Source: Candidatus Krumholzibacteriia bacterium
GTDB lineage: Bacteria; Krumholzibacteriota; Krumholzibacteriia; JAJRXK01
Length of the DNA: 51,412 bases
Assembly: GCA_029932915.1 (NCBI GenBank)
Contig: JAOZPE010000007.1
Location: 1-51,412, forward strand
Direction: 5' to 3'
Shown here: positions 24,518 to 51,412 of the stretch, piece by piece
How the letters are laid out: the number at the start of each line of letters is the position of its first letter
How positions within the stretch are numbered: position 1 is the stretch's first letter
Program-made: the position numbers and the translations under genes
The notes under the pieces: generated by a model
What the model was told of the DNA's origin: nothing
The model's input: only the letters and a program-made list of their open reading frames with translations
Databases searched by the model: none

Positions 24518-25666
24518 CTACCCGTCCCCCTCGGCGCTCTCCTCGACCGAGAGCAGGTGGTAGTCATTGTCGCGGACGGCGGGCTCGAAACCGGCGTCGC
24601 GGATCATCGCGTCCATCTCCTTGCGGCTGAGGCGGAAACGCACACCGGCCTGGCTGACCACGTTCTCCTCCATCATGGTCGAGCCCAGGTCGTTCGCGCC
24701 GAAGAAGAGGGTCATCTGACCGATCTTCGGGCCCTGGGTCACCCATGAGGCCTGGATGTTGGCGATGGAGGGAAGGGCCAGGCGCGCCACCGCGAGCATC
24801 CGCAGGTAGTCCTGGCTCCCCTTGAACGAACTCACCGGCAGGCGGGCCAGCTCTTCACCCCCCTTCTCGGTCATCGGTGTCGATCCGGGTTGGAAGTTCC
24901 AGCAGATGAAGGCGGTGTAGCCGCCGGTGCGGGCCTGGCTCTCCCGGATCCGCAGCAGGTGCTCGACCCTCTCGGGCAGGGTCTCGATGTGGCCGAACAT
25001 CATGGTGGCCGTGGTCCGCATCCCCAGCGAATGGGCCTCCTCCATGATCTGGGTCCAGCGATCGGCGCTGACCTTCTTCGGGGCCAGGATCTGCCGCACC
25101 CGGTCGTTGAGGATCTCCGCGCCGCCTCCGGGAATCGAGTCGAGACCGGCCGCCTGCAGCTCGGCGATGACCTCGCGAGTGGACATCTTGAAGAGGCGGC
25201 CGAAGTGTTCGATCTCACTCGGGCTGAAGCCGTGGATGTGAACCTGGGGGAAGCTGCTCTTGATGTCGGCGAGCATCTCCTGGTACCAGCTCAGGGGGAG
25301 CTTCGGGTGGTGGCCTCCCTGCAGGAGGATCTGGTTGCCGCCGATGGCGATGAGCTCCTCGATCTTGCGGTGGAGCTCCTCGCGCGTCAGCACATAGGCG
25401 TCCTCGTCCTGCTTGTGCCGGTAGAAGGCGCAGAAGCTGCAGTCGACGTAGCACACGTTGGAGTAGTTGATGTTGCGGTCGATCACGTAGGTGACGTGCC
25501 GGGGATCGCAACGCCGCAGACGCCGGTCATGGGCGGCCCGCCCCAGGGCGGACAGCTCGGCGTCCTCCAGAAGGCAGAGGATCTCCCCTCCGGCCAGGGT
25601 CTCCCCCTCGACGGCGGCGCAGAGAAGATCGTCCACGCGGGGATCCATGCTGTATCGCTGGGCCAT
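24518..25666 (-). CDS. mqnC: Cyclic dehypoxanthinyl futalosine synthase (radical SAM)
   Basis: A 382-residue radical-SAM enzyme of the futalosine menaquinone route, which closes dehypoxanthinyl futalosine into the cyclic intermediate. The cluster motif is Cys72-x3-Cys76-x2-Cys79 in NVCYVDCSFCAFYR. Family landmarks include ILLQGGHHP, HGFSPSEI, SIPGGGAEIL and SWVTQGPKIGQ, which distinguish MqnC from MqnE. Starts at 25666 or 25648 are possible; neither has a strong ribosome site. The gene stands alone, 23 kb from mqnA and mqnP. Both belong to the same pathway, so the mqn genes are split across this window. Confidence 0.95.
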   Translation of the reverse strand: MAQRYSMDPRVDDLLCAAVEGETLAGGEILCLLEDAELSALGRAAHDRRLRRCDPRHVTYVIDRNINYSNVCYVDCSFCAFYRHKQDEDAYVLTREELHRKIEELIAIGGNQILLQGGHHPKLPLSWYQEMLADIKSSFPQVHIHGFSPSEIEHFGRLFKMSTREVIAELQAAGLDSIPGGGAEILNDRVRQILAPKKVSADRWTQIMEEAHSLGMRTTATMMFGHIETLPERVEHLLRIRESQARTGGYTAFICWNFQPGSTPMTEKGGEELARLPVSSFKGSQDYLRMLAVARLALPSIANIQASWVTQGPKIGQMTLFFGANDLGSTMMEENVVSQAGVRFRLSRKEMDAMIRDAGFEPAVRDNDYHLLSVEESAEGDG

Positions 25667-48356: not shown

Positions 48357-49175
48357 TCAGGCCACCGCCAGGCGCACCGCATCGCGGCACGAGCAGAGCT
48401 GATGCTTGTGGGCGAGTTCACCGAAGCGCCGCAGTCCCTCCAGTTCGGCCTCGGCCATCTCGTAGTGGATGGAATGGGTCCAATACGACTTGAGTTCCTC
48501 CGCGCTCCGCCCGGTGCGACGCGACTCCTCGTCCGCCAGCTCGTCCAGGTGCGCGAAGCCGGCCGCCTTGGCCTCGGTGAGAATGGAGATCAATTCCTCC
48601 CGCCGGGAGCGCATCGGATCGGACGAGTAGTTGCGGGACAGGACCCAGGCCGCGAACACGAAGGGAAGCCCGGTCAGCTCGTGCCACATCGTTCCCAGGT
48701 CGTAGACGTACAGATCCTTCTCGTCCACCTGCAGGGCCCGGTCGCCGATGATCAGGGCGGACGGGTACTGCAGGAAGGGATTCTCCGCGATGGGAGTCAC
48801 CGTCACCAGGTCGGGCTGGTTCCCGTAGATCTCGGCCACGAGGATGCGCAGTAGAGCCACGCTGCTGCGACTGCCCCGATCCACCGCGATGCTCTGGGCC
48901 TCCTCCAGGGGGACCTTGGAGAAGACCTTCACACTGTGCACGGCACCCTGCGCACCGATGCAGATCCCCGGGACCAGATCGCCACCCACGCCGCGCAGGT
49001 ACTCGATGGCGGGGATCATGCCCACGTCGATCTGCCCCTCGTGGAGGCGGTCGGCCAGACGCGAAGGCAGGTCGAAGAGAACCCGCAGCCCACTGCGCTG
49101 GTCCAGGCCGTAGGTGAGGGGAACGGTGTTGAGAAAGGAAACCGCGCCGATGCGATGGCGGAGGGATGCGGTCAT
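48357..49175 (-). CDS. mqnA: Chorismate dehydratase MqnA
   Basis: A 272-residue periplasmic-binding-protein-fold enzyme that dehydrates chorismate to 3-enolpyruvyl-benzoate, the first futalosine menaquinone step. Landmarks include GAVSFLNTVPLTYGL at the N-terminus, VGMIPAIEYLR, and the DRGSRSSVALLRI segment lining the active site. ATG at 49175 overlaps the stop of the upstream mqnE-like gene (ATGA). Third gene of the mqnP-mqnE-like-mqnA operon. The following step in the pathway is MqnE, making the degenerate neighbour especially notable. Confidence 0.94.
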   Translation of the reverse strand: MTASLRHRIGAVSFLNTVPLTYGLDQRSGLRVLFDLPSRLADRLHEGQIDVGMIPAIEYLRGVGGDLVPGICIGAQGAVHSVKVFSKVPLEEAQSIAVDRGSRSSVALLRILVAEIYGNQPDLVTVTPIAENPFLQYPSALIIGDRALQVDEKDLYVYDLGTMWHELTGLPFVFAAWVLSRNYSSDPMRSRREELISILTEAKAAGFAHLDELADEESRRTGRSAEELKSYWTHSIHYEMAEAELEGLRRFGELAHKHQLCSCRDAVRLAVA

Positions 49176-50254
49176 GCTTCGTCCAGCTCCTCGGGTTGCA
49201 GATCGAAGGCGCCGTTGCGCAGGACCGGAGTGTAGCCGACTTCCTCCAGCCACCGAATCATTTCTTCCCCGCTGAGGTCGAAGCTGTCGGCCACTTCGCG
49301 GGGACTTCTGTCTCCGGCGGAGAGGGGTCCTTCCAGATCGTCCACGCCGCAGCTCAGGGAGAGGTGGGCCATCTTCAGGTCGCTGCGCCCGTAGGACATC
49401 CTCACATGTTCGACGCCGGTGTCCCACAGACGGCAGGCGCTGAACACGCGCACATCGAATTGACCCTGGGTGAGCAGGGCGTCGCGCGCCCCCCCGAAAC
49501 CCTTCGGATCGTACACCATCGGCGACAGACTCAGGAAGACACCGCTCTCCTCCTGCACCGCGGCGATCGCGCGGAGCTGGTCGAGCAGCCGGTCGAGCGG
49601 CAGCTCCGGTCCGAAGAGGACGGCCGCGTTCCCGCGCAGGCCCGCCCGGCCCGCGTCCGTCCAGAAGGCGGCCCAGCGCCGGTGCGCCTCCTCTCCGAAG
49701 GCGGGATGCCACTGTGGACGCACCCCGTCGGAGATCACCCTCAAGCCCGCCGCCCGGGCGTCGGAGAGGACGGAGCGATCGGCGCCGGCCTGCATCCACG
49801 TGTCCGCGACGCCGAGCTGGAAGGTGGGTCCTCCGGGCTCGGACCCGCCACCTGCGGTGGACGAGGCCGGCCGGCCCGCTTGCTCCAGGATCGAATCGAT
49901 GGCTTCGGCCGCGGCCGCGGCGATCTCCAGCAGGGCGGCCGCACCGGTCCCCTCCGGTGGAAGGAGCTGATAATCGCCCGCGGCCGGATGGGCGCACGCC
50001 TGCACCCGGGCGACGAGGCGGGCCCGATCCCCCAGCGAGGCCGCTCCCTCGGGACCTTCCTCTCCCCCGGAGCACGCCCCCAGGGGGATGCCGTTGATGG
50101 GGTTGCAGGAGAGAGCACTTCCCAGATCGATGCTCTGCACCAGGGTGAAGCTCGTGACCGTCCCGTGCAGCTCACGGCGGAGCGCGTCGGCGCGGGCGGC
50201 CGCCTCCAGTGGATTCGGCCGCTGCAGGATCTCGATGAGGCTCGACGGGTCCAA
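49172..50254 (-). CDS. MqnE-like protein lacking the radical-SAM cysteine motif
   Basis: A 360-residue protein whose C-terminal half aligns by eye with aminofutalosine synthase MqnE: AGLRGNAAVLFG (family: GLRSNATMLYG), RLLDQLRAIAAVQEESGVF, and a final VADSFDLSGEEMIRWLEEVGYTP. The SAM-site GGGAE is replaced by SDGVR. Where MqnE has NxCxxxCxxC, this protein has only Cys50 and Cys61 eleven residues apart, so no [4Fe-4S] radical-SAM cluster can be bound in the normal way. The frame is intact, coded like its neighbours and coupled to mqnA, which argues against a decaying pseudogene. TTG at 50254 has AGAGGA upstream and gives the usual MqnE start; ATG at 50284 lacks a site. Could be a scaffold, a regulator or a new non-radical enzyme. 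Confidence 0.75.
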   Translation of the reverse strand: MDPSSLIEILQRPNPLEAAARADALRRELHGTVTSFTLVQSIDLGSALSCNPINGIPLGACSGGEEGPEGAASLGDRARLVARVQACAHPAAGDYQLLPPEGTGAAALLEIAAAAAEAIDSILEQAGRPASSTAGGGSEPGGPTFQLGVADTWMQAGADRSVLSDARAAGLRVISDGVRPQWHPAFGEEAHRRWAAFWTDAGRAGLRGNAAVLFGPELPLDRLLDQLRAIAAVQEESGVFLSLSPMVYDPKGFGGARDALLTQGQFDVRVFSACRLWDTGVEHVRMSYGRSDLKMAHLSLSCGVDDLEGPLSAGDRSPREVADSFDLSGEEMIRWLEEVGYTPVLRNGAFDLQPEELDEA

Positions 50255-50361: not shown

Positions 50362-51216
50362 TCAGGGCCACAGGAGGGCCAGCACGGCGAAGGCCAGGAA
50401 GACCAGACCGACCCACGAGTTCACCTGGAAGAAGGCCTGGTCGATCCGGCGCAGATCGCCGCCGCGGACCAACCAGTGTTCGTAGGCCAGGAGCGCGGCC
50501 ACCGTGAGCACCCCCACCGTCCAGGGCCACCCCAGCTGCTGGGAGAATCCGGCCGCGGCGAAGAAGATCACCGTCGCCGCATGGCACAGGCGAGCCACCC
50601 CCAGCGCCGCCCGATCGCCCAGGGCCGCCGAGACGCTGTGGAGACCCGCGCGGCGATCGAACTCGGTGTCCTGGCAGCCATAGATGATGTCGAAGCCGGC
50701 CACCCAGAACAACACGCCCGCTCCCAGCCACAGGGGAAAGGCATCGAAGCCGCCCCGCACCGCCAGCCACGCACCGACCGGGGCGATGGCCAGGGCCAGA
50801 CCCAGGAAGAAGTGCGAGAGGACGGTGAAGCGCTTGGTGAGCGAATAGAACAGGACGACCGCCAGGGCCGCGGGCGACAGCTTCAGGCAAAGGGGATTGA
50901 GCTGCCAGGCGGCCACCACCAGCAACAGGGACATGGCCCCGGTGAAGATCCACACCGGAGCGCGGCGCAGTTCACCGCGGGGCAGCTCACGCGCGGCGGT
51001 GCGGGGATTCCGTTCGTCCAGGTGATGGTCGACCAGGCGGTTGAACGCCATTGCCGCGCTGCGCGCTCCGATCATCGCAACCACGATCCACAGGAAGATC
51101 CGCCAGGAGGGCCATCCGCCGGCGGCGACGAGCATGGAGATCAAGGCAAAGGGCAGCGCGAAGATCGTGTGTTCGATCTTGATCATGCGAAGGGTCTTGA
51201 CCAGCGCGCCCGACAT
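50362..51216 (-). CDS. mqnP: UbiA-family prenyltransferase of the futalosine pathway
   Basis: A 284-residue integral membrane enzyme with about eight helices that attaches the polyprenyl chain to the naphthoate head group. The two aspartate motifs are NRLVDHHLDERNP (N-x3-D-x3-D) and YGCQDTEFDRRAG (D-x3-D), with the basic and helical surroundings typical of UbiA. ATG at 51216 has GGAGG 6 nt upstream; an upstream in-frame ATG at 51270 has none. First gene of the minus-strand operon with the mqnE-like gene and mqnA, which supports the MqnP assignment over ubiquinone UbiA. The remaining sequence to the right edge holds no gene. Confidence 0.9.
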   Translation of the reverse strand: MSGALVKTLRMIKIEHTIFALPFALISMLVAAGGWPSWRIFLWIVVAMIGARSAAMAFNRLVDHHLDERNPRTAARELPRGELRRAPVWIFTGAMSLLLVVAAWQLNPLCLKLSPAALAVVLFYSLTKRFTVLSHFFLGLALAIAPVGAWLAVRGGFDAFPLWLGAGVLFWVAGFDIIYGCQDTEFDRRAGLHSVSAALGDRAALGVARLCHAATVIFFAAAGFSQQLGWPWTVGVLTVAALLAYEHWLVRGGDLRRIDQAFFQVNSWVGLVFLAFAVLALLWP

Positions 51217-51412
51217 CTCGGCCCTCCAGCTTCCCCAGTCCACGGCGAAAGAAGACGAAGCGAGGTGCACGGGAGGGTAGCATCGACAGCGACGGCGAGC
51301 CAGGGAACGGATGGGCCGGGAGAGGGCCCGATCCGGAGGCGCCCCCTGGTCCTCGATCGAGAAGAAGAGTATCCTCGATTATGTCCGCCCTGTATCCGGG
51401 CGACGGATCCCA

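Follow-up and report, generated by a model that had tools for sequence, protein, structure and literature searches.

The gene between mqnP and mqnA in the window (the whole stretch of 51,412 nucleotides of Candidatus Krumholzibacteriia DNA that was analysed) encodes a 360-residue MqnE-like protein without the CxxxCxxC motif, here called X. As far as sequence can tell, X is a real, lineage-specific and conserved radical-SAM pseudoenzyme, its catalytic loss being deduced from motif loss only. It is classed as such because its orthologs share the motif loss, its coding sequence is constrained and a canonical paralogue is present. MqnE uses a [4Fe-4S] cluster and SAM to make aminofutalosine, and the role of CxxxCxxC in radical-SAM chemistry is established. 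Radical chemistry by X is unlikely, since its cluster and SAM sites are gone and canonical MqnE and MqnC are present.

X lies on the minus strand at 49172..50254, on a contig of 79,904 bases from a 2.9 Mb draft genome that is 98% complete. The frame, described in the preliminary description as intact, is indeed open, with 360 codons and a stop. It is flanked upstream by mqnP (50362..51270, minus strand), which encodes a UbiA-type prenyltransferase, and on its other side by mqnA (48357..49175, minus strand; PF02621, 187 bits). The TGA of X overlaps the ATG of mqnA by 4 nt, as ATGA at 49175-49172, a stop/start overlap that fits the coupling of X to mqnA proposed earlier. At the other end of the frame, AGAGGA precedes the TTG start at 50254. 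This start is correct, since each of the three X orthologs from other genomes has a TTG at the corresponding position, preceded by a GGAG-like stretch. A frame that looks like a UbiX-type flavoprotein (PF02441; L067:11458-12174, minus strand) is located about 5 kb upstream of mqnP on the same strand.

Ten aligned MqnE proteins of the class share invariant C58, C62 and C65, G103 and G104, and GGGAE at 166-170. CxxxCxxC is absent in all four X orthologs, the window protein included, and three cysteines are never present at the cluster site. Both replacements reported earlier, Cys50 and Cys61 for CxxxCxxC and SDGVR for GGGAE, were seen. Cys50 (codon at 50105..50107, minus strand) and Cys61 are the sole cysteines of X near the expected cluster site. 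Each of the four has one cysteine close to where MqnE carries its second cluster cysteine (Cys50 in the window protein), and a CxxC (CGIC) is found at the old cluster site in the G001 ortholog only. The stretch of the VGG SAM motif is not conserved. At the GGGAE site of MqnE and MqnC, SDG is invariant in the four proteins, and X of the window reads SDGVR (49718..49732, minus strand; this position and that of the Cys50 codon were computed from the translation). Residues that X keeps are the Trp after the GGGAE site, a Gln in the helix that follows, the His ahead of the last strand, and G-x-D-D-x-x-G.

X could still hold a metal or an Fe-S cluster, bound by cysteines that are non-canonical and distant from one another, and serve as an electron source for MqnE. 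All four orthologs have the cysteine near the old site and another within ACRL, and three of them have a third (LSCGVD or LLCGVD), the fourth being the one with CGIC at the old site. In the X of the window the three are Cys50, Cys274 and Cys302. A precedent is provided by Dph1 and Dph2, which bind clusters via wide-apart cysteines and not CX3CX2C; these paralogues without the classical motif form a non-canonical radical-SAM heterodimer in which both subunits matter (PMC11048331). Dph1-Dph2 thus resembles X as a paralogous radical-SAM pair without CX3CX2C; the protein and the pathway are unrelated to X, however, and the analogy is one of working mode only. The position of the third cysteine differs among the X orthologs, the model is of low confidence in the part that bears the cysteines, and we consider a cluster of this kind highly doubtful.

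Against the curated family models, X scored 46 bits with MqnE (TIGR03700; cut-off 434.55 bits) and 53 bits with MqnC (TIGR03699; cut-off 428.1 bits), in both cases over the C-terminal half only, and it falls about 390 bits under the MqnE cut-off. Two X orthologs scored 59 bits each against TIGR03700, also below the cut-off. No Pfam match was obtained for X at E values up to 1, Radical_SAM (PF04055) included; PF04055 does match the genome's own MqnE and MqnC, and a sub-threshold match to CofH_C was seen in two X orthologs. A profile of the four orthologs aligned with the MqnE profile over 307 columns, nearly the full length (hhalign, E 1.9e-22), and more weakly with MqnC (E 1.9e-17). On these scores and the profile match, the resemblance noticed at first reading is no product of chance.

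The predicted structure of X was of moderate quality (pTM 0.59, mean pLDDT 53; about 77-89 for residues 191 to 260). In Foldseek searches with this model the four best solved structures were MqnE chains (6xig, 6xi9; E 2.9e-10 for 6xig). When the G001 ortholog was modelled in turn, its top four solved matches were again MqnE chains; the MqnC of the window sat in the alignments of both models, which may have pushed the fold towards the MqnE/MqnC group. X is homologous to MqnE over its whole length and, on these moderate models, would have the same fold. It shares with MqnE an N-terminal helix, an H-(I/V)-(N/D)-P stretch (most evident in the G001 ortholog) and the C-terminal G-x-D-D-x-x-G with the His that precedes it, but its middle part is shortened. 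MqnC (cyclic dehypoxanthinyl futalosine synthase) belongs to the same superfamily and its model gives a similar score with X, but X lacks the same motifs relative to it, matches its profile less well than that of MqnE and has no NINY(S/T)N stretch.

In phylogenetic trees X formed a single clade (100/100) on a long branch, and the best tree placed it on the MqnE side. Grouping with MqnC was not rejected by the AU test (p 0.25). An MqnE origin would be favoured by the H-(I/V)-(N/D)-P text near the N terminus, and we lean towards MqnE ancestry over MqnC, short of proof. The preliminary description had called X an MqnE paralogue without the cluster motif; the family and the missing motif stand, whereas descent from MqnE and not from MqnC is unproven.

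Orthologs of X, 35-41% identical to the window protein (BLAST), were found in all three other genomes of the same family of uncultured Krumholzibacteriota (f1) among the 80 genomes of the phylum that were searched. X was thus present in four of the 80, with scores of 500-568 bits. The remaining 76, which belong to the same class, yielded nothing comparable, the best score being 70 bits for an MqnE with its own cysteine motif. Genome-contig searches gave no match with the single X protein and two only with the X alignment, namely G001 and G002. The normal cysteines, looked for at X in the relatives, are absent in all orthologs, and four separate genome assemblies agree, which rules out a sequencing error or a local loss of the motif. 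X is not the only MqnE of its genome either: canonical MqnE above the cut-off is present in all four f1 genomes (471-491 bits), the window genome's copy being on contig C82 (471 bits). Canonical MqnC is likewise present in all four, in the window genome at 24557..25609 on the minus strand (481 bits, above the cut-off). The surmise that a true MqnE or MqnC would exist elsewhere in the genome therefore holds for both. Two PF02621 proteins, which fit the MqnA and MqnD types, and MqnP were also found in each of the four genomes. Since f1 genomes have separate proteins for the MqnE, MqnC, MqnA and MqnD steps, X is not needed for any of these.

Further observations were made on the canonical genes. 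In the window genome a frame with a ferredoxin domain in its C-terminal part (PF13370; L068:8901-9827, minus strand) adjoins canonical mqnE, G002 has a comparable frame upstream of its mqnE (L073), and the PF13370 frame is a possible electron donor. MqnE of family f4 (L080:305-1357, L078:4816-5868 and L085:5007-6101, all minus strand, and L010) has Cx5CxxC instead of CxxxCxxC, with sequences such as CVYAKSCQFC and CVNHGSCRFC, which amounts to a radical-SAM motif with altered spacing. Two of these proteins score above the MqnE cut-off (513 and 502 bits), and the L085 protein, scanned as a fragment, below it (362 bits). In G010 (L085) adjoining MqnE- and MqnC-like proteins are divergent, with GGGAK and SVEGVE at the GGGAE site and 39% and 35% identity to those of the window genome; MqnP was not found in G010.

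The order mqnP-X-mqnA is found in the window genome and in G003. In G001, mqnP-X is followed by a DUF5996 gene on the opposite strand, with mqnA-mqnC on another contig, and in G002 the order is X-mqnA-mqnC with mqnP 7 kb upstream. In each of the four genomes X has a mqn gene next to it, also in those with a split cluster, and so it stays with whichever mqn genes remain. The retention in operon order suggested earlier is therefore true of X beside a mqn gene, but the full order was kept in only two of four genomes. In families f2 and f4, mqnP and mqnA are direct neighbours with no X between them.

Another possibility is that an operon copy of mqnE was displaced and that X is its pseudogene, now in decay. 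X has lost its motifs and evolves faster than its neighbours, with 35-41% identity to its orthologs against about 70% for MqnC, and in families f6 and f8 the place upstream of mqnA is taken by a canonical mqnE. The frames are open, however, with conserved TTG starts in four deeply diverged genomes, and rearrangement has not parted X from mqn genes. Within the C-terminal half, differences are found at 24-36% of sites for codon position 2 and at 49-65% for position 3 (in one example 57 against 116 differences of 178, p 5e-10); the contrast is weak in the N-terminal half (p 0.002 to 0.12 across the pairs compared). Decay is already very improbable, and the earlier proposal that X is under selection is upheld by this C-terminal constraint and by the retention beside mqn genes.

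The main rival explanation makes X a new enzyme that uses the MqnE scaffold without radical chemistry and acts on a pathway intermediate, for example by removing the base from futalosine or aminofutalosine. No futalosine hydrolase (TIGR03664) above the cut-off was found in the 17 Krumholzibacteriota genomes searched, although most of them do have MqnA, MqnD-type and MqnE/MqnC proteins. The f1 PF01048 proteins examined (all four of a divergent kind and one of a second kind) score best as purine-nucleoside phosphorylases. X also has invariant residues of its own (SDG, H...Y.R.DLK.AH and G.DD..G). No catalytic motif was recognised. Searched families that have no X are without the canonical hydrolase as well; the gap can therefore be accounted for without X, and this explanation keeps the status of a rival only. 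The divergent phosphorylase-like paralogue of f1 is an equally good nucleosidase candidate. Enzymatic activity of this type is unlikely on balance.

The reading we tentatively prefer, at somewhat less than an even chance, is that X is a radical-SAM pseudoenzyme that acts as a non-catalytic partner or ligand-binding subunit for MqnE or MqnA. A duplicated MqnE-type protein would have lost the [4Fe-4S] cysteines, the SAM motif and GGGAE in the ancestor of f1 and retained its barrel-like core and C-terminal part. X may then attach to canonical MqnE and regulate or stabilise it as a subunit, or it may bind the MqnA product or aminofutalosine. Either way it could assist the passage from MqnA to MqnE, within the first half of the futalosine pathway. 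A role in this pathway is suggested because X is kept next to mqnA or mqnP and its C-terminal half is conserved. That a radical-SAM paralogue lacking the classical motif can be a necessary subunit is known from Dph1-Dph2 (PMC11048331). Radical-SAM proteins acting as carriers of a pathway product have been described in the haem chaperones HemW and CgdH2 (PMC10320005), with the difference that CgdH2 retains CX3CX2C and HemW its [4Fe-4S] cluster, whereas X is without the motif. X is absent from the related family f5, whose MqnE is close to that of the window genome (63-67% identity), so X is no requirement for MqnE chemistry. This, the weakly constrained N-terminal half and the presence of X in four genomes only count against a partner role. 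A stricter form, in which X and canonical MqnE would be an obligate hetero-oligomer in this lineage, a radical-SAM enzyme of the CofH/MqnE/MqnC group with X as a dedicated pseudoenzyme subunit, possibly with a cluster bound by non-canonical cysteines, is distinctly unlikely.

To our knowledge, conserved radical-SAM pseudoenzymes are rarely described, and a search of open-licence papers gave no match for an MqnE paralogue or a radical-SAM pseudoenzyme in the futalosine pathway. X is left unnamed by curated models at present. A radical enzyme and its motif-less paralogue occur in the same genomes, which makes the partner, carrier and new-enzyme models directly testable. X may also bear on the nucleosidase step, to which no protein is assigned in Krumholzibacteriota. 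The futalosine pathway is a route to vitamin K2 (menaquinone), and X is an extra, fast-evolving but retained copy within its mqn cluster that, judging from the protein's sequence, probably supports this pathway with no radical chemistry of its own.
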